Origin: Urechis unicinctus
Lineage: Eukaryota > Annelida > Polychaeta > Xenopneusta > Urechidae
Direction of reading: 5' to 3'
Assembly: GCA_034190875.2 (NCBI GenBank)
Contig: CM067348.1
Coordinates: 43,228,771 to 43,292,770, forward strand
Length of the DNA stretch: 64,000 nucleotides
The notes under the pieces are model-generated. The model saw only the letters and a program-made list of their open reading frames with translations, was not told the DNA's origin and made no database searches. A program made the translations under genes and the position numbers. How positions within the stretch are numbered: the first letter of the stretch is position 1; the number at the start of each line of letters is the position of its first letter. Shown here piece by piece: positions 41,507 through 63,469 of the stretch.

Positions 41507-41533
41507 TACCCCTATTCCACACAGACCACGAAT
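41507..41533 (+). repeat. Left terminal inverted repeat of the Harbinger element
   Basis: It begins TACCCCTATTCC and continues to CCACGAAT. It pairs with the right end 42585-42611 with two mismatches, at bases 5-6. Confidence 0.85.
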
Positions 41534-42584: not shown

Positions 42585-42611
42585 ATTCGTGGTCTGTGTG
42601 GAATATTGGTA
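42585..42611 (-). repeat. Right terminal inverted repeat of the Harbinger element
   Basis: It reads ATTCGTGGTCTGTGTGGAAT then ATTGGTA, the complement of the left end. Two further ATTCGTGG words lie immediately inside it. Confidence 0.85.
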
Positions 42612-49130: not shown

Positions 49131-50220
49131 TATTAACCTAACCAGATACCTATAGATGAACGTTTCCCAGTGAACATTTACATAATAGACTATTTAGTCT
49201 AATTGAACATTGTATACTGTGATTCTCCAGATATTATACACAAGGGGTAAAATAAGAATTATCGCTGGTCAATTCGGGCACTTTTGATGTGCTACATGTG
49301 GCATGTAGAAAAGTGGCATCCCTTCAATGTTTATTTACTCTTGAGACATTATGTTACACTCCAGCTGATTGTAGTGTATTGTATTGAAATGTTAATGAAT
49401 TCAAATTAGAAATTAAATACCTCGGTTTTATTCATTGTCTAGGAAAGGGCCAACGTCTCTTTCTCATCCGCCCTTTGTTGTTAAATGTGTACGGTACTAT
49501 GTGTTGCCGATTTCAGGAATATTTCACGCAAATGATGCACGCCCTAAGAAAGAATAAACGTATAAATGTGTGTGCCTAGTTCTGAAAGGAATCAACAAAG
49601 ATCATGGTTAAGGAAACAATAACCTCGCTAGTCAACAATCATCAGGTTTTTAACGTACAAACCAATAATAGTCTGAGGTTGTGTGATTTCAAGCGTGCCA
49701 TAGTGTTTCCGGTGGTAATTAAATGTCGTTCACTATAGATCAATTCCTTTTTTTCTCATGCTTTAATTTAGTGTTCAACAAATGTATGTGGGAGGTTGCA
49801 TGCAACTCACGTATTTGAAATTACTAACCGATGTAAAGTCCAGTCAATCGTGACGACAGCCAGAGATTACGCATCATTTGTGGCAGAGGTGGTTGCTTTA
49901 ATATCCGGCCGAGGTCCATAAAAGGCAATGTATAGCGGAAATTAATGATGAATTATTAACAACCCAGTGCAAAGGAACATCTCTCAGCGATTCGAGAGTA
50001 ATCATACATATAATATGAATATAGGGTGATGTGTATAAGCCACTCATTTGACATAAACATCAACTAGCATATGTAGCCCAGAACTAATACTTATACTGGC
50101 GCTGAATTACAATCTATGTAGCGTTGTCACGAACTAATTTCGAAAGCTTGGTGATGGCAGCATGGTGTTTAGCTATCCCCTTATGCACAGTTTTGCATCG
50201 TCGCTCTTACAAATTCAATT
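49131..50220. other. No recognisable feature
   Basis: Unique DNA with no convincing frames. Confidence 0.4.
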
Positions 50221-52138
50221 ACATTATCTTAATTTGTGAACTTACCTGTGGCTGGATCTCTTAATTTAACTTGGATAGATTTTCATGTACATTTGTAATC
50301 ACGTGATTCTAACGTTTGTAACATACCAGTCGAATATGTATCCACCATGTATTTCTTACCTGCCGGATTTGATCGTTAATCTACACATATGAGCCTCTCA
50401 CGAACTGTCTGCATTCCTACCCAATAAGTATGATATCAAGGATCAAGCAACGTGTGTTTTGGCAAACGGTAGAATTTATGCCACGCGTGGCATGATTCAA
50501 TAGCAATAGTCCATGTTTGCATACACTGAGGCATGATATTCTTTTCTTCTTGCCAATAAACTAACTCGTTCCCGGGGTTATTCAGTGCATCGGTATATGC
50601 TGTGCACGTTACACTATCCGTCGTAGTTCTATTATTACCACACCTAGATATTTGATGTGAGATTGATTGCTCCTCTCGTAGAAAAGCAGTTTACACGCCC
50701 TGAAGCACGTAATGAGGTAATCGATTGCACAATTATATATATATATATATATATATCATTTATTTCGTTGTTTGTCGGCGAAAAGTTTTGTATGTGATGG
50801 TGTTCATCAATTATTTTACCCTAGAATCATAGTCACAATTATAATGTGTCGCCAAAAGGTTTCTACTGTTGTTTAGAATCGGGTTTTTGTACCATAACAT
50901 CGGAAACAAATTACACACGAGGCAGTGTAATCATCAACATATCAGTAAAGCGAAGGGAATGCATGAAAAATCACTCCCTGAATTCATTTTGCATTTAAGT
51001 TTGCAAGCAGTATATAATCCTATAACATTATTTCCATGTCGCAAATGTACCCGCCAAACGCCAGTATGATTACGGGTGGCACATGTAACATCGGGGTTAT
51101 AAAAATGGTCGCTGTGCAATCACCATCGTGAATAGCCCATAATTGACTGGCCAAAGGAACGCTGCCTGTCGGCCTATAATCCTGCGGATGAAGTATCTGA
51201 CGCGTTAAATGCTACTGCTTCCCGAGATGCACATATCAATGAAAGCTATATATTGCACCACAAGTAAATTAATATTTAGGTTTTTATGAATTGCCCTCTA
51301 GCATCGCTGCAGTCTACAACGCAAAACCCCTACTGCCAAAAAAATGGACTAGAAATGCACTTAGTCCATTTTTGACTGTTGTGGCCTTTACTTTGAACGT
51401 TTACATCGTTTTCGCTATGTCGTTAACAGGCCAAGACCCAAAAGGGTTTAGGATGTCACGCAGATCTAGTGACCTGCGTAGTGGCTTCAATTATATGCCA
51501 TTGTCATCCTTAGCATTTTGCAGCGTTTCTATCAAGTTTGTGCTCTCTGCGTGTCGTTTAGTAGATGTTAATATTCAACCCGATTCCGACACACTAGGAT
51601 TGATTTTCAGGCTATTGAATCAGGATGCGTAATAATCACACGCAAAACTGAATAAAGTTATTGAGGCAACAACATCGACGTCGCATTTCCGTCTACCTAC
51701 AGACAACATCACAAACGGGGCTCGGCGTCCGTTAACGATAAAGTGCCATTTGATAGGTCGAGGCTACCACGCCTCCGAATTGATCAGATAATTTCAAGTG
51801 GTTTCAAGAGACGCTTTGACAAAGCAACACGCGGATCACAGGTGGCGTCGTCACATATTATCTCAGGCGGAGGCACAAATAAACAATCTCCGCTTAAGTA
51901 TAAACTCTTGGATCTGACTACAATATGCACAATGTCAGGGATGTAACATGGAACGCAAAGAATGCCGTAAATTGCGGCCCACATCTGCGCCCTTATACTA
52001 AATGCCGTGTCAACGATTGCTTCAAGGATGAGCATTGTCATCAGTGGAATGTTGGTGAAATCTGTTATCGATGATGTAAGCATTCCGAAACACTGAAATC
52101 TCTTTGAAAATGCAAGCATTCGCCAAATGAATGAGGCA
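50221..52138. repeat. Tandem triplication B, copy 1 (about 1.92 kb)
   Basis: First of three head-to-tail units. It contains a (TA)n run of about 23 bases at 50734-50756 that is absent from copy 2. On the plus strand is a frame at 51291-51632 with a hydrophobic stretch (FLTVVAFTLNVYIVFAMSL). On the minus strand is a frame at 52119-51784 reading FTNIPLMTMLILEAIVDTAF and then AAIYGILCVPCYIPDIVHIV. Neither is recognised. Splice-donor-like words on the minus strand (CAG|GTAAGTT at about 50244, CAG|GTAAGAA at about 50358) are conserved between copies, so a minus-strand exon family is conceivable. Confidence 0.95.
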
Positions 52139-54041
52139 TTACATTATCTTAATTTGTGAACTTACCTGTGGCTGGATCTCTTTATTTAACTAAGGTAGAT
52201 TTTCATGTACATTTGTAATCACGTGATTCTAACGTTTGTAACATACCAGTCGAATATGTATCCACCATGTATTTCTTACCTGCCGGATTTGATCGTTAAT
52301 CTACACATATGAGCCTCTCACGAACTGTCTGCATTCCTACCCAATAAGTATGATATCAAGGATCAAGCAAGGTGTGTTTTGGCAAACGGTAGAATTTATG
52401 CCACGCGTGGCATGATTCAATAGCAATAGTCCATGTTTGCATACACTGAGGCATGATATTCTTTTCTTCTTGCCAATAAACTAACTCGTTCCCGGGGTTA
52501 TTCAGTGCAACGGTTTATGCTGTGCACGTTACACTATCCGTAATAGTTCTATTATTACCACACCTAGATATTTGATGTGAGATTGATTGCTCCTCTCGTA
52601 GAAAAGCAGTTTACATGCCCTGAAGCACGTAATGAGGTAATCGATTGCACGGCGGATTGTTTGTCGGCGAAAAGTTTTGTATATGATGGTGTGCATCAAT
52701 TATTTTACCTCAATGCTTTGTCTAGAATCATAGTCACAATTATAATGTGTCGCCAAAAGGTTTCTACTGTTGTTTAGAATCGGGTTTTTGTACCATAACA
52801 TCGGAAACAAATTACACACGAGGCAGTGTTATCATCAACATATCAGTAAAGAGAAGGGAATGCATGAAAAATCACTCCCTGAATTCATTTTGCATTAAGT
52901 TTGCAAGCAGTATATAATCCTATAACATTATTTCCATGTCGCAAATGTACCCGCCAAACGCCAGTATGATTACGGGTGGCACATGTAACATCGGGGTTAT
53001 AAAAATGGTCGCTGTGCAATCACCATCGTGAATAGCCCATAATTGACTGGCCAAAGGAACGCTGCCTGTCGGCCTATAATCCTGCGGATGAAGTATCTGA
53101 CGCGTTAAATGCTACTGCTTCCCGAGATGCACATATCAATGAAAGCTATATATTGCACCACAAGTAAATGAATATTTAGGTTTTTATGAATTGCCCTCTA
53201 GCATCGCTGCAGTCTACAACGCAAAACCCCTACTGCCAAAAAAAATGGACTAGAAATGCACTTAGTCCATTTTTGACTGTTGTGGCCTTTACTTTGAACG
53301 TTTACATCGTTTTCGCTATGTCGTTAGCAGGCCAAGACCCAAAAGGGTTTAGGATGTCACGCAGTTCTAGTGACCTGCGTAGTGGCTTCAATTATATGCC
53401 ATTGTCATCCTTAGCATTTTGCAGCGTTTCTATCAAGTTTGTGCTCTCTGCGTGTCGTTTAGTAGATGTTAATATTCAACCCGATTCCGACACACTAGGA
53501 TTGATTTTCAGGCTATTGAATCAGGATGCGTAATAATCACACGCAAAACTGAATAAAGTTATTGAGGCAACAACATCGACGTCGCATTTCCGTCTACCTA
53601 CAGACAACATCACAAACGGGGCTCGGCGTCCGTTAACGATAAAGTGCCATTTGATAGGTCGAGGCTACCACGCCTCCGAATTGATCAGATAAGTACAAGT
53701 GGTTTCAAGAGACGCTTTGACTAAGCAACACGCGGATCACAGGTGGCGTCGTCACATATTATCTCAGGCGGAGGCACAAATAAACAATCTCCGCTTAAGT
53801 ATAAACTCTTGGATCTGACTACAATATGCACAATGTCAGGGATGTAACATGGAACGCAAAGAATGCCGTAAATTGCGGCCCACATCTGCGCCCTTATACT
53901 AAATGCTGTGTCAACGATTGCTTCAAGGATGAGCATCGTCATCAGTGGAATGTTGGTGAAATCTGTTATCGATGATGTAAGCATTCCGAAACACTAAAAT
54001 CTATTTGAAAAGGGAAGCATTCGCCAAATGAATGAGGCATT
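52139..54041. repeat. Tandem triplication B, copy 2 (about 1.9 kb)
   Basis: Roughly 98-99% identical to copy 1 by eye. It lacks the TA run and has a few extra bases near 52712. The plus frame 53186-53533 and minus frame 53984-53721 repeat those of copy 1. The minus frame is ended early by one substitution at the codon matching gcttTGTC of copy 1 (TAG here), so that frame is not conserved in length. Confidence 0.95.
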
Positions 54042-56060
54042 CCGCGTTTTTATTTTTTTGAACTTACCTGTGGCTGGATCTCTTTTTTTAACTAAGATAG
54101 AATGTATCAAAATGTACATTTGTAATCGAGTGTTTCTAATGTTTGTAACATACCATCGAATATGTATCCACCTTATTTTCTTACCTGCCGGATTTGATGC
54201 TTAATCTCCACATATGAGTGATGATCTGTCTGCATTCCTACCCATTAAGTATGATATCAAGGATCAACCTGCGGGTGGAAAGGCAAACCATGATTTTATG
54301 CCAGGCGTGGCATCATCAATAGCAATTCATGTTTGCATACACTGAGGCATCGCCATCTTTCTTTTCCGATCCAATAAATTAACTCGTTTTAGACATTGCA
54401 TTATATCATTACAATGTCGACGGTTCTATTATTACCAACCTAGATAAGGTAAATGTAAGATTGATTGAAGGCTCTCGTAGAAAAGCAGTTTGTACGCCCT
54501 GAAGCACGTTTTGTACCGATAGTTCATCAATATTTTAAGCTAACAATATAACCAACAGAGGAAGAGAGAAGCATTACAAATGACACAAATGTTTATGTTT
54601 GCGATAATAGACCTCATATAGTTTAATGGAAAATATCGTGAGATAAGGGTCAATCATCCTTAGTTTTGAAATTATTTCGCCCATCCCGTGTCGCACTTAC
54701 TACTAGCGCTATTGCTGCACAATTTGTATGCATTTGAAAGGAGTTGAGCGTGTTTGTGTTATTCGAAACAACAGGTGTATTGGCTATTTTACTAATTTGT
54801 TTTTCACAATCATTGTCAAATTAAAATCTGACTGTAACCATCAACATATCAGTAAAGCGAAGGGTGCATGAAAAATTGCTCCCTGAATTCATCATTTAAG
54901 TTTGCAAAGCAGTATATAATCCTGATATAACATTATTTCCATGTCGCAAATGTACCCGCCAAAGGCCAGTATGATTACGGGTGGCACATGTAACATAAAT
55001 GCGGGTTATAAAAATCGTCAGGTGCATTCACCATCGTGAATACGGTTAATTGACTGGCGAACCGAACGCTATTTGAGGCCTATAATCCTGCGGATGATAT
55101 CTGACGCGTTAAATGCTACTGCTTCCCGAGATGCATATCAATGAAAGCTATCTATTGCACCACAAGTAAATGAATATTTAGGTTTTTATGAATTGCCCTG
55201 CGGCATCGTTGCAGTCTACAACGCAAAACCCCTTTGTCAAAGAAAATGGACTAGAAATGCACTTAGTCATTTTCGCTGTTGTGGCCTTTACTTTGAACGT
55301 TGCATGTTTTCGCAAGTGTCGTTAACAGGCCAAGAGCTGAAAAGGGTTTCTGTCACGCAGATCGATGGCCTATCGTAGTGGCTTCAATTATCCTACCATT
55401 GTCATCCTTAGCATTTTGAAGGGTTTCTATCAAGTTTGTTGAAATGGCTCTCTCTGCGTGTCGTTTAGTAGATGTTAATATCAAACCCGATTCCGACACA
55501 CTAGGATTGATTTTCAGACTATTGAATCAGGATCCGTAATCATCACACGCAAAACTGAATAAAGCTATTGAGGCAACAACATCGACGTCGCATTTCCGTC
55601 TACCTACAGACATTGTCACCATTTGTCATGAATTTCCGTTAACGATAAAGTGCCATTTGATAGGTATAGCAATCACGGATCCTTGATCAGATAAGCAAGT
55701 GGTTTAAGAGACGCTTTGAGAAGCAGAACGCGGCTCACAGGTGGCGTCGTCACATATTTTTTCAGGCGGAGGCAAGTTTAAACAATCTCCGCTTAAGTAT
55801 AAACTCTTGGAGTGACAACAAAATGCGTGTTGTCAGGGAAAACGATGGAACGCAAAGAATGCCGTGAAAATGCGGAAAGCATCTGCGCCCTTATACTAAA
55901 TGCTGTGTCAGCGATTGCTAAAGGATGAGCATCGTCATCAGTGGAAATGTTGGTGGTGAAATCTGTTATCGATGATGTAAGCATTCCGAAACACTAAAAT
56001 CTATTTGAAAAGGGAAGCATTCGACAAATGAATGAGCGAAATCCGAGTTTTCATTTTTTT
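54042..56060. repeat. Tandem triplication B, copy 3 (diverged)
   Basis: Collinear with copies 1 and 2 but with many small indels and substitutions, and a central block (about 54500-54840) that does not align. Both unit frames are broken here (pieces at 55193-55378 plus and 55793-55984 minus). Its end (ccgagttttcattttttt near 56043) matches the sequence just after copy 2 (ccgcgtttttattttttt near 54043), giving the unit boundary. Confidence 0.93.
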
Positions 56061-58668
56061 AGCAGTTTGAAAAATTGTGTTTTATGAATGTATCACAATT
56101 ACTAGTTCTTATTTGGAGCTTTAGCTTAATGCGACAATATTGAGAGATGAATCGCTGCCTATAGCTGCGGGTAGTTTCACCATGATTTATAGCCTTACGC
56201 TTCGTTTTCAAATTTTGATGTCGCCTTCTATTATTGATCCCATTGGGTATACTTGAGATATTTATCTATTCATGACATGTCGACGTTAAAGACAAAGCAT
56301 ATATACCGTGCTGCTGCTGCTGGACCACTAGCGTCTGCTTTAATATAACACCGGCATGTAATATGACCCCATTAGTACCTGCCGAGTTCTAAGAAATGCA
56401 ATCATGAATAATGCAATAAGAGAGACGGCTTTGAGCTGGAATATTAGGATGTGGTTCTGAGCAACCATATGGAGTAAGAGCACACGCAACGCGACGCCAT
56501 TCAGCCAGAGTATGTGACAGTGGAGTAGAGACGCAAATCGTGACGGTATGTAACAGAGTTGAGTTTATTACCATTCCAAGGAGCGTTTAAAAGATGGGTA
56601 ATAATATGCAATCCCAGCGTTAGTCACTAATAATAATAAAGTGATCGATCAGGTCACTGGAGCAACTATTGTAATGCCATATGCTCCCTGGATACGACGA
56701 CAGGTTATGTGGGCCAGTCAAATCCTGTGGGATGGACGCATTAATATTCAGTCGCTGGACATAGTTAATGTTACATAGCACATGACATGAATAATATTAA
56801 ATTGCTCTTCACAAATTGTGTAAAATACCGCCAAGCAGCATAAGTAACAACAGCACGGATGAGACGCAACGCAATACAGAATTAGGTTGACTCAGAAATG
56901 AAATATTTTCGACCGCTTACCTTGTATCTGACAAGTGTTCATCGAACAGACATCCCTGGCCACTGACAAATAATATTAACTGAGCGTTTAACACCATCGA
57001 ATGAGCTATGCATACGCAAAAATAACATTTGGCTCTTCTGTCATCGTAGTTTATAGTCGTGCCTTCTATGGAAACTGATATTCTGTTGAGCGACATAACA
57101 GTCTTGACATTTAGCTAGTTTTAATCCTGCTAAATTATTTATCGTATGTGTAAGCTTGGCATGTCGTATTTTACAGGATGAATGCTTTTTTTAGGTACAT
57201 ATATAGCTGCAAAAACTATTGTTCCGGCACCGACGAAACGATTACAATGGTGCAGAATAAATATAATTAATACAGCGTCCATTTTGAAAATGCACGTTTT
57301 ATATGTTTAAGGGCCGCAGCGTCAGGGAGTTGCATGAATTTATTATGCAATGTTTCGGGTTCCTTGCTTCACTGCTGCACACAATATCGCTTAGTTTCTA
57401 TTTTAATGATAAAATACAGCGTACCTAATTACGATCGGTGTCTCTCATCTAACTGATGGATAGTCGTAGCTTTTATGAGCGTTGTATATCAGGGGTTATG
57501 AGCATAAATAATAAAAAGAAATACTTCTGTATCATCTAGCATTTGAATTGCGCATGTTTAAATAAAGAAAAGTTGGTATTTTCAGTGAGCTAGCAGATTG
57601 TGGATTGTTTATTTATGGTCAGAGATACCATATAATAAGCGGTATAAAAGTCTTGTAATGCTACTGATGATGCTTTCTTGAAGGCGCTTAATCGTCTTAC
57701 TTTGTATGAGCATCTCAACTGCTGTATAAACAAAACAGTCGTTGCGCAGTACGGAGCCAAATGAGCTACACGGTGTTCCGATGGCAAGGCGAAACACATT
57801 AAGTTTAACTGTAGCTGATTTGCCAATTGCGAACGGTGGTGATAATGCCTTTGCTAAATGAACTATCGTTTTAATGCATAAATCATAACTTGTTTTGCGA
57901 ATCAGGCAGACAACGACTGCCGCATATAAGTCAGTTAGCCGTATCGAACAGTATATATCAAATAACATTTGGCATCCTTAAAACATGTTTAAATATGCAT
58001 TTGAATATCTATAATAATCAATCTAATGTTATGTGCTGTGTTTTCTTTGGTTGCAATAACAGGATACATAACATTGACAATTTCCATGGCAACAAGACGT
58101 GGATCCACAGGTGTTCTAGGGGTAGTATTTCAAATATCCGGCCGAGAACCTCTGACAGTCGTATACAATACATACTTGCAATTGTACAGTCAATTGAATA
58201 TCAAACTAGCCTGCATCAACTAGCCTGTGGCAAGGAGTACAGCCCTGAATCATGTATTCACTTATGTGCCCATGGCCATGACTAAAAGCACTGCGATTGC
58301 GACGCTGGGTGAGTAAGAATAATAAAAAAATCTGCGATTCTTGTCAGATAAAAATCGATGGTGGCAGCAGAGTACACAAAATATTACATTATTGATAATC
58401 ATAAGGTTGCAACGCAATTAACCATGACATTTATACATACATACATATGTTTAATGAGACTCAGGGAGTATGGCAGTAATATTGATAGCTTATTGATTTT
58501 GAACTCTACCAATGAGTGCATTTCTGCTGATGGAAGCATCACTCCAAAACTACAAAACTTCAGTAAATACATCAACTGAGTGGGTTAACCTTTCGTATAT
58601 ATCCCCTCTTAAAATGCATTAAGTGTTATTCTAAAATGCAGCAAAGGAAGAATTTAAGTTTGCTTTCA
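56061..58668. other. No recognisable feature
   Basis: The longest frames, 57609-57968 (minus, 119 residues) and 57890-58285 (plus, 131 residues), overlap each other and show no known domain. A second plus frame at 58026-58223 opens with a hydrophobic run (AVFSLVAITGYITLTISMA). None is supported as a gene. Confidence 0.35.
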
Positions 58669-58687
58669 TTAAAGTGCCTATCGCACG
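58669..58687 (+). repeat. Left TTAA target copy and terminal inverted repeat
   Basis: TTAA (58669-58672) is followed by AGTGCCTATCGCACG (58673-58687). This is a perfect inverted match to 61318-61336 including the target duplicate. Confidence 0.95.
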
Positions 58688-58855
58688 AAAAATCATGTCA
58701 TTTTTTTTCGCCAGATAACGGAAATATAACCCAGAAGTACCTATTCTGTCTATATGTCAATTGTTTTAGTACGCGCTTTCTGATCGAAATTCGACTTTAA
58801 AGATCAATTCGGCGTATCGAGCCGACAAGCTCATGAATAATTCATCACCTCCGCG

Positions 58856-58863
58856 TGACGTCA
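58856..58863 (+). promoter_or_regulatory. CRE-type site upstream of the zinc-domain gene
   Basis: The canonical cAMP-response palindrome TGACGTCA lies 54 bases before the ATG at 58917, inside GTGACGTCAGGT. The same 12-base word occurs in inverted position upstream of the THAP gene, so it may be a shared promoter element or a subterminal transposase site. Confidence 0.5.
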
Positions 58864-58916
58864 GGTCCGGGAATGTTTTCGTTGCGAGGCGCTATCTGCA
58901 CTACGATTAGCGAGAA

Positions 58917-60180
58917 ATGGCTGCTGGAAATTTCGTTATTTCATCACTTCAGGAGAGCGACTTAGAGACATGGTATGGCACAGGTCATTCTCATACTATC
59001 GTTGCTTCGGCAGAGCAAGTTTTGCCTTACAGTTTCGAACCAGAAATGAGCGAATCCGACGTCTCCGATGAAGAGAAAACAGACATTGGCGATGTAACTG
59101 CTGCATCTGGGTCTCACGCAGGTCATCCCGCCCAGGACATAGGGCGGCTACAGAAAAATGCTTTGTAAGCTTTGTCTGATCGTGCTTGTGCACCAGTTCA
59201 TCGTATATGTGTTGGCGTGTTACGAAATCAATCCATAAATTTCACCAACAAAATTTGTTACCTCTTTTCCTAACAGTATACAACAGAGCTTTGCAGCAAA
59301 TAATTCTTCCATATCAGACAGCAGACATGAGATACCACAAAGTTTTTATCGAATCAAATGGTTGCAAGGGTTCATGTTTACAAAGTTGTACCGTGTAAAT
59401 GTAAATGCTCCTCCACACGAATTGCAAACAAACTAATTTTGGACAGCTGTTAATAAATAGATATCCTCTTTTATTTAAAGTAGGCCTTATCAAAGCCTGA
59501 TTACAATATTTTAAAAAGTTGATGTAGATTGATTCTGAGGTAGAATATAGAGCAAGTATCAAAGCTGTTTTCTCATAGGATTGTCAGTTAGCCCATAAAT
59601 GAATGTATAAATGGACTTAAGGAGGTGAAGATTATGGTATTATATATTATCATCGTGGTCAGTGTTACATCACAGTTTCTATGAATGCAGAGGCTAAAAC
59701 ATATTTGCCATACAATATGTCATCCTTTATTACATACATTAATATTCCCATCATTACATCATGTTACAGGTGTTTGTGTGGCTACGGTCAACCAATGGCA
59801 GATGTGGAAGAATCTGTGTGCAGTGTGGAAATTCCTTGAGTCATGACCTCAATAGAGAACAGCCCCATTCCCATTGGTGGCATAACCCAGCATCCTGGCT
59901 TCAGCCCAATCTGTTTGAACCTTTAGGCCTTGCAAGTGGATTATTTCTCCTACGGACAACAGCACGAAGATTCTGGTCTCATCGCATCTGCACACATTGG
60001 AGGTGGTGCTTGTGTCTTTGGCAGGGTTGGCTCATAGCAAACTAGCAAGAACTCAGCCATCAGGCACTCGACATAATCTGAAACATAACAGGAATCAAGT
60101 CACAGCTTGCACACCAGACTGTCGCTTATTACCTTATATCCCCATGGTTATTGAATTTTTTGTTGTTTACATTTTATATA
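58917..60180 (+). pseudogene. P2X7 C-terminal-like zinc-domain gene of the transposon (decayed)
   Basis: Exon 1 (58917-59164) starts MAAGNFVISSLQESDLETWY and holds VLPYSFEPEMSESD, the Y-x-F-E-P word seen before this domain in transposon-linked proteins of cnidarians and other animals. A GTAAGC donor (59165) and a TTACAG acceptor (AG 59768-59769) remove about 605 bases and restore the frame. Exon 2 then reads LCLCGYGQPMADVEESVC..EIP, and later ITQHPGFSPICLNL and LQVDYFSYGQQ. This matches the Cys-rich zinc-binding region known from the intracellular end of P2X7 receptors (C-x-C-G-x-C-x-P-M-x-T..E..C-C; I-T-x-H-P-x-F..C-L-N). Two stops interrupt exon 2 (TGA 59837-59839, TAG 59924-59926), a glycine or tyrosine replaces one expected cysteine, and the distal part (after about 60040) no longer aligns. 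Function in the element is unknown; no channel domain is present. Confidence 0.72.
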
Positions 60181-60343
60181 TCAGTAAAAATATTCACCAA
60201 ATGTTGCCTTTGTTGCTACTTTAGTGACAACATGCCCCTGCTTAAACTTGGGGTATCTAAGCTTGAAGACTGAATCCCCAGCTTCTGTTGTCGCCTGTTT
60301 TCTTTCCCCATTTTCATTGTAATGGAGAGCAGCCAGTCTCAGT
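60181..60343 (-). pseudogene. Transposase final exon, Kolobok-like
   Basis: After an acceptor (ttgtatcacag, AG at 60345-60344) the frame reads RLAALHYNENGERKQATTEA, then VFKLRYPKFKQGHVVTKVAT and ends KATFGEYFY with a stop at 60183-60181. This resembles the conserved tail of THAP-containing Kolobok transposases from cnidarian-type elements (L-A-x-L-H-x-N-E-N-x-x-R-x-Q-A..F-P-K-x-K-x-G). It follows the THAP exon on the same strand after a gap of about 250 bases in which a catalytic core of several hundred residues would be expected. The core was deleted from this copy. The stop abuts the end of the convergent zinc-domain gene. Confidence 0.6.
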
Positions 60344-60591
60344 CTGTGATACAATGAACCAATTATACATGACCTACATATATTTGGCATATCAGTACAT
60401 GTGAACAAATTTAATGACTCGCAAATTTAATTCAGAATATACAAACATCACCATGAAGGAGCACTGTAAAAAGCAACAAATTATATCATAAGAATGGCAC
60501 TTGCCTGCCAACCATATCCTCAAAGAAGAAGACCAGCATCTTTGGGGCGAAGTGGTTGACCAAACAATGGAAGGCTTAACAAGATAATGGA

Positions 60592-61022
60592 CTATTTTTT
60601 CAATACTAATGGAACAAGAAAGTCATCGAGTCTCACCCTCTGCTTCTCGCTCTTCATAGAGGCAGGTCTGCTTTTCTTGGGCTGGGGTGGGAGGGGTTCG
60701 CTTGCCTCACCATCCTTTCTTGATTGCTTGACAGCAGAGGCCTTTGCAAAAAGAGTAGCCACATCAGCTTCCTTCAAAATCCGCTTACATCGTGGTATCC
60801 AACCAAGCTCTTCTCTGAGTTTCGGTGCCTCCTCAAAACATTCCTCAGTGAAATGAACCGAGCACACAAACGAGTACTTGCCCGGGCCCGGCCATTTGTC
60901 TCGCGATCGTAGTACCTGGCAAATCCATTGTTTTTTTAAATCGTCCTTCAAGGAAACCTAAACAAGCTCACGCCGTCCCGACTGGTACGCGAGCAGCCCC
61001 CAACACAACAACCATTAACCAT
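60592..61022 (-). pseudogene. THAP-domain transposase, N-terminal part (decayed)
   Basis: ATG at 61022 starts MVNGCCVGGCSRTSRDGVSL, then FRFP. A frameshift follows at about 60948-60951, after which the next frame reads KDDLKKQWICQVLRSRDKWP..YSFVCSVHF..CFEEAP..LKEADVATLF. The C-x(2-4)-C pair (C6, C10), the F-x-x-F-P word, the invariant W, the C-x-x-H pair about 43 residues on, and DVATLF in place of the usual A-V-P-T-I-F make a full C2CH THAP zinc finger of about 90 residues, which binds transposon ends. A basic tail (QPKKSRPASMKSEKQR) runs to the stop near 60592. No catalytic domain follows directly. Confidence 0.85.
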
Positions 61023-61141
61023 CCCGTTCAGGCGGTAACAAGCTGGCTAAAAACGATCCTAAATCCCAAAAACGAGAGACGAACTCCGACAATGTAAACA
61101 ACGGGGAACTCCATACGTCTCAGAGAACGGCCTCCCTTACC

Positions 61142-61149
61142 TGACGTCA
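61142..61149 (-). promoter_or_regulatory. CRE-type site upstream of the THAP gene
   Basis: TGACGTCA lies 120 bases before the THAP start. On the minus strand it continues TGACGTCAGGTAAGG, so the right side also looks like a splice donor (CAG|GTAAGG), possibly of a 5-prime untranslated exon. The core GTGACGTCAGGT is identical to the site near the opposite end. Confidence 0.45.
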
Positions 61150-61317
61150 CACGCATGGTTGACCTAGATAATGGCTGCCGCAACGTTTTGTCGGGCGCGT
61201 TAATTTGAACTGATATTTTATCCAATTTTGGCCTTAACTGATCAGATGCGACGGTTATTGGACCGGTTTGAGTTTATTGATCACATTATGAATTGATTTC
61301 AGCGAAGTACCTATAAC

Positions 61318-61336
61318 CGTGCGATAGGCACTTTAA
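61318..61336 (-). repeat. Right terminal inverted repeat and TTAA target copy
   Basis: CGTGCGATAGGCACT (61318-61332) is followed by TTAA (61333-61336). No similarity to the left end continues further inward. Confidence 0.95.
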
Positions 61337-61490
61337 ACATCAGTCAGTGTCTATAAGCCACATAACACAAAGAATGGTCGTATTTTAGAAACAGCAACCA
61401 AAATAGAGAACAAATGACAGACGTTTCAAATTGTGCAGAGGGACGCATCTCCACACTAATTTGGCGCATTGCTAGCACTGCGTACAGCAG
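61337..61490. other. Flank between transposon and possible exon
   Basis: Unique sequence; its end (cactgcgtacagcag, AG 61489-61490) can serve as a splice acceptor. Confidence 0.3.
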
Positions 61491-61680
61491 CTCCGGATGT
61501 GCCTCGCAGGGAGAGCAATATTTAATTGCACCGCATGATTGTAGCGCGTTGACGAAATGTTTGTATCACGGCCAACAGGAAAAGGCGGCTGTCAGGACAT
61601 ATCGTAAGTGGTTTGCTGATATACAAGTAGAACAATTTAATTGCATTAATAGCAGCAAGCTGCAAAGCATCGGCAAATAA
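61491..61680 (+). pseudogene. Possible decayed peritrophin-A (chitin-binding type 2) exon
   Basis: Following an acceptor-like cag, the frame reads SGCASQGEQYLIAPHDCSAL, then TKCLYHGQQEKAAVR, a WF pair and VEQFNC. The spacing fits C-x(n)-C-x(5)-C-x-x-x-G-x(7)-[C]-x(5)-F-x(8)-C of chitin-binding type 2 domains, which are secreted and bind cuticle, peritrophic or shell chitin. The fourth cysteine position is arginine (AGG), so one disulphide is lost, and a stop follows at 61678. Family members normally carry several such domains; only one is seen. It is likely a broken host exon, or a coincidence. Confidence 0.35.
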
Positions 61681-63469
61681 CCCAACGGCAAATAACACCG
61701 AGCAGTTCAAAGCCGGTACGACAAGCAGTTGACTTTATATGTCCCCTCGAATCGCAAAAAAACTACTATATCCATTGGACATGATTCCCGCAACGCCCGT
61801 CAAGACATTGATGGCCAAATTGGCACCATTACGTAACATACTGCCATTGTGAATGCTTGCAATAATATATACTACTATAATGTCAGAGACGTGCTGTCTG
61901 CATTTATGATTTACAGATTATTGGCCTGCACTACAAAATTGATAGTACGGACACTTCCTCATAACCCTCAAATTTTCAATGGCTTGATTAAGTCATTTGA
62001 AAAGCACGGCGCTTGCACCTTGCGTTTTTATGGACCAATTGTTTTTTTACTGCAACCAGTGATGCAGAAGTCAGGGAGAAGAGGCACCTTAAGTAGACTA
62101 CGAAAACACATGCTGGACTCTCAAAAACCTTGTGCAAGGCATCCCATGTATCTCGCCCTAACATAAATATCAACGGCTGGTAAGTGATAAGCTCAATCAA
62201 AAAATTGCGTTGCTTTATATGTCGATCGATTCCCACAATGACGTAATTTCCGTGCATATTTTAGATGACGTAACTTCTGATGAGTGTCTAAGTTTTCATT
62301 TGCGCCGATATTTCCTGCAGTCAGCTTATTGTTAGGCAGTCTTTTCATTCCGTTAAATATATGAGTTAAGTGTGGCTTTGGACAGACGACAATGGACATA
62401 AGCTGCGTGACTGAGAGAATAAAAGCATCAACTCGGAGTATTGCGATCGACATTTTGTGAGTGTCACATATATGACGCAGGCAATTTATCGCCACCCAAA
62501 GCAGCCAATCATTTAGCGAATCACGCAAGATGATACAATATTAGCACGAAAAGGAATAATGAAATATCTTGGGTGGCACTAATTTATTAGGGGAGCTCAT
62601 GGGTGATTGTTGAAATAAGTTGCATAGGTAATTCGTTTCGTTTGCTCATAAACTCAGATCACATTTTGATTAAGTCAACGGTTTATGACACAATCTGTTG
62701 TTATGGTAACGCTGTTATGCCTAATGTCCCAATTTCTTAGTATGCATATACGTATATATATACCATGATACAGCAAAATATATATCAGTCTTACCAAGTC
62801 GCCGGTTTACCCTCATAACGTACGCATAAAATGAACACCAGCATTTGTTTTCGCGAAAGGGCGCTGATCAAGCGCTAATTTCAAAATAACATTGATTGCA
62901 TAATTGCAATCAGTTAAGCAGTAAATCGGTCTCGAGCGCTGCTTCATTCCCGATGTATATTCCACGACATCTAACATGCTCTTATCGACACCCTGTGGTT
63001 ATGCTGGTCACTGTAAGAAAAGCACAACTAGCTGAGAGTCATGCGGGAATATTTGGACATCAACATTCAAACGTCACCGATGGTGCGACTAAGAGTGGCG
63101 GGACACATGGACTGATACAAATACATCCAGGTTGTCTTGGTCCTATCGATCAGCTACTCCCGTGTCAATATCTGGGGACATTTGATTTCTATTCTTCCGA
63201 GGGTCGGGTCTGCTTTTATAGGGCTGATGCTGATATATAGTTATAATTACATTCGTATTATATTTCTCTACCAAGTGATTTATAGGAAGGTCTTTGTATT
63301 TGCGAAATTCATATGCGTTTGTGAGCATTTATTTTAAAACATCCACACTGACGTTGAAATGTTTTTGAACTGCACAGCATTACGAACGATACACGAAAAT
63401 GCGCCTGACATGACAAAATCTAACTGTGATTGAAGTTGTAAATAAAATCCTCATCTGCATTGCAGCATA
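61681..63469. other. No recognisable feature
   Basis: Frames at 61849-62166 (plus), 61988-62257 and 62193-62528 (minus) and 62896-63240 (plus) are 89-114 residues long but overlap and match nothing I know. Confidence 0.4.

Follow-up and report, generated by a model that had tools for sequence, protein, structure and literature searches.

The window (the whole 64-kb stretch of Urechis unicinctus DNA that was analysed) contains, at positions 58669-61336, a 2,668-bp element delimited on both sides by TTAA and perfect 15-bp inverted ends. Two convergent gene remnants lie inside it: a gene similar to the tail of P2X7 receptors (KolX, plus strand) and a THAP transposase gene (minus strand). The features are as follows.

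58669..58672, no strand: left TTAA target-site copy
58673..58687, plus strand: left 15-bp terminal inverted repeat, starting 5'-AG (RR)
58856..58863, no strand: CRE-like palindrome TGACGTCA with the KolX ATG about 54 bp further on; any role is presumed
58917..59164, plus strand: KolX exon 1, containing YSFEPEMSESDVSDEE; splice donor GT at 59165, by inspection
59770..59971, plus strand: what remains of KolX exon 2, encoding the beginning of the zinc/ballast domain, with two in-frame stops
59966..59972: deletion junction, about 385 bp lost relative to relatives (end of KolX exon 2, intron 2, exon 3)
60181..60373, minus strand: final exon of the transposase gene, encoding the C-terminal tail (HYNENGERKQATTEAG...), uninterrupted up to the stop
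60501..60577, minus strand: remnant of the exon bearing the likely catalytic E in relatives (AFHCLVNHFAPKMLVFF...), by frame reading
60577..60579: deletion junction at which the core of the transposase, with both D, C/DxxH and E, has been lost
60637..61022, minus strand: transposase exon 1, THAP domain, with one frameshift near 60950
61142..61149, no strand: CRE-like palindrome TGACGTCA with the THAP ATG about 120 bp further on; any role is presumed
61318..61332, minus strand: right 15-bp terminal inverted repeat, finishing CT-3' (YY)
61333..61336, no strand: right TTAA target-site copy

The 19 nt at each border (58669-58687 and 61318-61336), made up of TTAA and the 15-bp end (AGTGCCTATCGCACG), show 100% complementarity, as described in an earlier note on this DNA, which had read perfect terminal repeats and TTAA duplicates as the borders of the element. 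When up to three mismatches were allowed, the 15-mer matched two places in the window, the two ends of the element, both exactly; at least two such loose matches occurred in 23 of 100 shuffles. Perfect inverted repeats of at least 19 nt and at most 10 kb apart (low-complexity words excluded) comprised the pair of the element and one other pair in the window, and none were found across 30 dinucleotide shuffles. Searches of viral contigs gave one match of the 15-mer in each of nine contigs, taken as chance, and 23 pattern stretches for the transposase tail, none of them a relative.

In the host genome (1.19 Gb in 926 contigs) the element forms a repeat family with at least 88 matching stretches (best 40 of 2367 candidates scored). 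We examined 45 distinct family loci (50 minus five repeating a place), many of them short of both ends; both ends were present at 20 of the 45, the window copy counted. TTAA on both sides, as expected of the 4-bp target duplication characteristic of Kolobok transposons, was found in 15/20 two-ended copies, the window copy among them; in the other five TTAA is altered on one side. The termini, AG...CT, have the 5'-RR...YY-3' form of Kolobok ends.

The left CRE-like TGACGTCA octamer is retained in 15/18 other copies and carries no special signal, because 703 of 2527 octamers are equally conserved; the right one is retained in 18/19 other copies, a level reached by 115 of the 2527. The sequence AGTACCTAT occurs at 58736-58744 and 61306-61314, near both ends of the element and nowhere else in the window. 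It is similar to the start of the terminal repeat (AGTGCCTAT), and its copies are possibly additional, putative transposase-binding sites.

The first exon of the transposase gene encodes the THAP DNA-binding domain of a Kolobok transposase: the minus-strand frame 60592-60951 matched the Pfam THAP profile with 25.5 bits, rising to 50.6 bits (E 3.4e-13) once the N-terminal piece from the next frame was joined, with X at the frameshift. A THAP finger had been proposed in the earlier note together with a Kolobok-like tail; the tail proved to be the last transposase exon (60373-60181, minus strand) by comparison with locus L044. The HYNENG frame, considered as an N-terminal part of the transposase, was rejected, as it is this same last exon. 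The codon for the likely catalytic E is itself gone at the junction bordering the 60501..60577 remnant, and the window element is absent from the core matches listed (best 150 of 688 candidates). Thus, with the core junction at 60577, the complete transposase of an autonomous transposon is missing here.

The KolX gene, as judged by frame reading, starts with MAAGNFVISSLQ, contains YSFEPEMSESDVSDEE, continues past the intron with LCLCGYGQPMADVEESVC and ITQHPGFSPICLN, and is interrupted by two stops. The motif Y-x-F-E-P lies in 58917-59164, C-x-C-G is read from 59770 on and I-T-x-H-P-x-F near 59882, all on the plus strand. In an alignment by eye with the P2X7 pattern (C-x-C-G-x-C, CC, C-I-T, LP-x-C), exon 2 of the window copy keeps three of the seven Cys, the zinc-binding positions. 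A further stretch, HRICTHWRWCLCLWQG (~59970-60040, plus strand), was considered as the end of the ballast domain and rejected, since in L020 it follows the stop codon of KolX. The KolX pieces of the window copy had no Pfam match above the cut-off (a sole chance match to HMBD, 12.3 bits against a cut-off of 23.6) and no P2X7 chain in PDB (one chance chain, E 0.48). The window copy is doubly defective: it has lost its transposase core as well as exon 3 of KolX, what remains of KolX carries stops, and the THAP exon has a frameshift. The missing core, the missing exon and the breakage of both genes had not been noticed in the earlier reading.

Kinship of the window KolX with P2X7 is demonstrated only via intact relatives, by profile and sequence matches. 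KolX exon 2 of loci L043, L044 and L056 contains C-x-C-G-x-C, CC and C-I-T, and exon 3 of the same loci reads RRYRYTAYRQFVRWCWGHLGQKIRV(P/T)LPACAVTTIRDSFPA.... Exons 2 and 3 of L043 matched Pfam P2RX7_C with 49.5 bits (E 6.4e-13; the human P2X7 tail as positive control gave 196.5 bits), and four PDB sequences, all P2X7 (best E 2.1e-5). The alignments share the Cys pattern and an A-Y-R...LP-x-C...I-R-x-x-F-P stretch; exon 2 of L046 alone had no Pfam match. Hence the resemblance to the zinc-binding C-terminus of P2X7, suggested from the window letters, holds through L043, which supplies the second protein of a Kol0 element, a KolX with the P2X7 ballast domain.

Relatives also supply what the window copy lacks in the transposase. 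Their core sits between the THAP exon and the tail, with GGDGRADSPGHS, ITDRH, DMWHVAK and SVEAFHS in this order. The Kolobok arrangement of DDD/E with C/DxxH between the second D and E is present in L044 and absent from the window copy; in L044 the order is GGDGRADS, ITDRH, DMWH, SVEAFHS, with catalytic residues assigned by inspection and not by a tree. As for the THAP domain, an AVPTLF box is found in relatives L020 and L090. A 233-residue stretch of the relatives' core gave sub-threshold Pfam matches only (the best to Mutator, with 16.9 bits where the cut-off is 26.5), and Pfam matches were absent for the L044 core piece, an L053 frame and the tails of L060 and L074.

One relative of about 5.5 kb (C12:58447405-58452861) contains KolX exons 1-3, the tail, the core and the THAP exon, with KolX convergent with the transposase. 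Its right end is perfect and followed by TTAA; 37 bp at the left tip, and about 80 bp close to the right end (element 2470-2550), have no match. Among the relatives examined, of which this one was followed in both directions, there was no intact autonomous copy having good ends on both sides. A search with the core gave at least 13 rows, corresponding to 11 places, at ≥84% identity (best 150 of 688 candidates); two of the 11 places are on C11, an apparent tandem duplication, and most other matches listed, at 35-77% identity, are more distant copies or families. At L089 (G000:C11:53529200-53531500) with L044 there are two copies of the core and tail, ~1.9 kb from one another, which looks like tandem duplication of part of a copy.

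Both genes accompany each other within the family. By tblastn, KolX exon 2 and THAP pieces were present in all 20 two-ended copies and the transposase tail in 17 (exceptions L030, L032 and L034); these copies were found with the window element as query and are thus biased towards retention of both genes. A search using just the transposase tail gave at least 150 matches (best 150 of 1800 candidates), and of 20 loci fetched (five being places already fetched) 19 had a KolX exon within 1.5 kb, the exception being L051, which has N stretches. The earlier note had set full-length relatives devoid of the zinc-domain gene as a test of its reading, and these counts do not refute it.

The pairing extends beyond the family. 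Pfam P2RX7_C as query gave at least 150 matches in the host genome (best 150 of 2592 candidates) and none in any of 14 control genomes. Among the 30 loci fetched, most of them from other subfamilies, 23 had a transposase-type frame downstream of KolX on the opposite strand; 22 of the 23 were judged by frames taken from L060 and L074, which had themselves been chosen for lying convergent with KolX. L062 alone was judged by the core and mid pieces of the window family (core 26% identity, E 7e-18). The L060- and L074-type frames are related to each other (hhalign 99.7%), and their comparison with the tail of the window family gave a BLASTP E of 0.001 for L074 and no match for L060, in a two-sequence search, with hhalign probabilities of 0.2% and <0.1%. 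L058 and L062 share 93-95% DNA identity, and L062 lacks exactly the stretch bearing the L074-type frame; therefore, within one element, this frame is flanked by a Kolobok-like core and by KolX, and it shares the strand of the core. The L060- and L074-type frames are tied to the transposase by position and not by similarity to the window family's tail.

Seven P2RX7_C loci were left uncounted: L064, where the tail is on the same strand as KolX; L066, where another element is inserted; and five with no tail found (L068, L077, L078, L081 and L083). A cluster at C17:63.87-63.98 Mb, with one KolX row and core rows on the same strand ~3.4 kb apart, speaks against a fixed layout. At L066 (G000:C15, ~1919-1923) a copy of the window family is inserted at TTAA at the 3' end of the KolX gene of another subfamily. 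Upstream of KolX in L060, L061, L065 and L079, and on the same strand, we observed an open frame that contains a stretch rich in Cys, similar to CRCKGQCVRRCPCKKNGTNCSTRCFCK. This frame may be a further KolX exon in that subfamily; the frames of L061 and L065 had no Pfam match.

These data bear on the possibility that KolX is a separate element or host gene, with the transposon inserted into or beside it. L066 shows that a copy of the window family can come to lie right behind a KolX gene of another subfamily. Still, KolX exon 2 is inside the ends of 20/20 two-ended copies, with the bias noted above, and the tail, used alone, retrieved a KolX exon at 19/20 loci; together with the 23/30 P2RX7_C loci this means that KolX is not a separate insert, the outcome that the earlier note had named as fatal to its reading. 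We regard a separate origin of KolX as very improbable.

The history of the window copy can be read from its two junctions. The core-deletion junction (window 60577) was found at 22 of the 45 loci, namely in the window copy and in L011-L019, L020-L028, L037, L042 and L052. The only loci to span the KolX-end junction (window 59966, ~385 bp) are the ten of window type, L010-L019; both junctions are common to the window copy and nine other loci. In a tree of the region common to all forms (31 rows, none dropped, midpoint root) the window-type copies constitute one group with support 0.878, and four core-bearing copies a separate group with support 0.999. Identity among seven window-type copies is 94.4-96.5%. 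The shared junctions, the grouping and this identity indicate that each shortened form spread after its origin; the window-type copies are a non-autonomous subfamily whose spread postdates the deletions. Further copies, among them loci L030-L035, L041, L055 and L088, have other deletions of the core region, and so the core was probably lost more than once.

We propose the following account, to which we assign a probability of about 0.95: the window element is a decayed non-autonomous member of a Kolobok (Kol0-type) DNA transposon family, twice deleted and spread. The parent would have been an element of ~5.5 kb with TTAA targets and 15-bp inverted ends, coding on opposite strands, tail to tail, for KolX (three exons, ballast/zinc domain) and for a THAP and DDD/E transposase. 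This transposase would cut DNA with the right ends and paste it into TTAA, as is known for Kolobok and presumed here. Loss of the transposase core would have come first, the shortened form being copied to many places; loss of the KolX end (intron 2 and exon 3) would have followed, and that form would have been copied again. The window holds one such twice-shortened copy, with stops and a frameshift. Core-less forms would have depended on a transposase encoded elsewhere, presumably acting in trans from core-bearing copies, with KolX as a likely helper in transposition.

The combination of genes is already in print. Kol0 Kolobok families are described as encoding the transposase and KolX, a protein with the P2X7 ballast fold and seven conserved Cys, in vertebrates, annelids, cnidarians and sponges (Kojima and Bao 2022, PMC9587614); the same paper proposes that P2X7 arose when a P2X4-like gene fused with KolX. 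The window element is therefore a further case, and a defective one, of a kind already described: the gene pairing is genuine, yet published, and the family is a host-specific one. It resembles Kol0 (Kolobok-1_XT type) as characterized there (PMC9587614) in its TTAA targets, RR/YY ends and DDD/E transposase with a ballast-fold KolX; the window copy itself is broken, with neither the transposase core nor exon 3 of KolX. Our assignment to Kol0 is by features and the P2RX7_C match. The statement of the earlier note that the second gene is not a standard transposase component is contradicted, since KolX is a standard part of the Kol0 lineage as that paper describes it (PMC9587614). Its observation of a two-gene, TTAA-flanked element is confirmed; as for its interpretation as a Kolobok-kind transposon, the two genes, THAP and TTAA stand, while this copy is twice deleted and non-autonomous, so that the interpretation overall is partly supported.

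Other known systems are similar in part. THAP, H2CH and DDE are listed as Kolobok transposase features in the Xenopus work (PMC6004289), and the XKol elements described there resemble the present family in THAP (C2CH, P/W/F, AVPTIF-like box), DDE, TTAA and AG ends (16 bp shown); they are 6.8-13.9 kb in full length, and a second gene goes unmentioned in the accessible part of that paper (PMC6004289). The P2X7 ballast domain and the ZCD/nanor proteins have a Cys pattern like that of KolX; the P2X7-tail domain was found across Metazoa in 2020, in a paper whose main text has no word starting 'transpos' (PMC7016195). KolobokP also joins a Kolobok element with an accessory gene, but differs in its His-Me nuclease and in the long direct repeats at its termini (PMC9587614). 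Terminal direct repeats of ~450 or 660 bp were not found here: the longest direct repeat in 58400-61700 has 19 nt at 79%. P2X7 is a cell-surface channel, while KolX is a stand-alone transposon protein.

We also considered a piggyBac-type element carrying a KolX-like gene, which the TTAA target would allow. The ends of piggyBac elements are of the CCY type; a DDD transposase with such ends was not found, the window element having AG...CT. Its transposase has a THAP domain, and no piggyBac Pfam match was seen among the transposase pieces scanned. According to the Kol0 paper, a few piggyBac families do have a KolX-like protein, but the AG...CT ends are Kolobok RR/YY and unlike piggyBac, and the DMWH in the core of the relatives is a C/DxxH string named for Kolobok (PMC9587614). 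Moreover, KolX of L043 has C-x-C-G-x-C, CC, C-I-T and LP-x-C like P2X7, whereas the piggyBac proteins are reported to lack most of the conserved Cys (PMC9587614). A piggyBac origin is accordingly very unlikely.

Least credible of all, and practically dismissed, is a working two-gene transposon with a newly captured P2X7-type zinc gene: both genes do lie between TTAA-flanked ends, but this copy has lost its core and exon 3 of KolX and its frames are broken, KolX is convergent with a transposase-type frame at 23/30 P2RX7_C loci, mostly of other subfamilies, and KolX is a published part of Kol0 elements (PMC9587614).

With the decayed Kol0-type element as the preferred reading, the function of KolX can be considered. 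In KolX frames of two other subfamilies dN/dS was 0.27-0.39 for seven pairs with dS of 0.09-0.31, frames having been chosen for being open, which biases the values. Six pairs with dS ≤0.06 were scattered between 0.26 and 1.13, one being undefined, and pairs between the two subfamilies were saturated. The range of 0.27-0.39 weakly suggests that KolX does something for the element, most likely as a helper of transposition. That KolX gives an advantage to its own copy, for example by protecting or guiding that copy or by curbing the transposase, rather than merely helping the transposase in trans, seems improbable; we consider it because copies devoid of transposase yet bearing KolX (the 3.05-kb form) have spread widely.

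The window element alone matters little. The host genome is rich in transposon-type P2X7-tail-like genes (the P2RX7_C matches above), which fits the published claim that the P2X7 tail descended from a transposon protein (PMC9587614). The convergent KolX-transposase layout is found in other subfamilies as well, 22 of its 23 loci being judged by the L060- and L074-type frames.

Two further repeats were observed in the window. A unit of ~1.7 kb occurs in several copies in 50218-56036: 50821-52490 is repeated at 52722-54388 (95%), part of the unit again at 54833-56036 (87%), and 52138-52600 matches 50218-50680 (98%). A perfect 21-nt inverted pair, TATTCCACACAGACCACGAAT, at 41513-41533 and 42585-42605, ~1.05 kb apart, lies beside ATTCGTGG repeats and perhaps represents the ends or subterminal repeats of another element.
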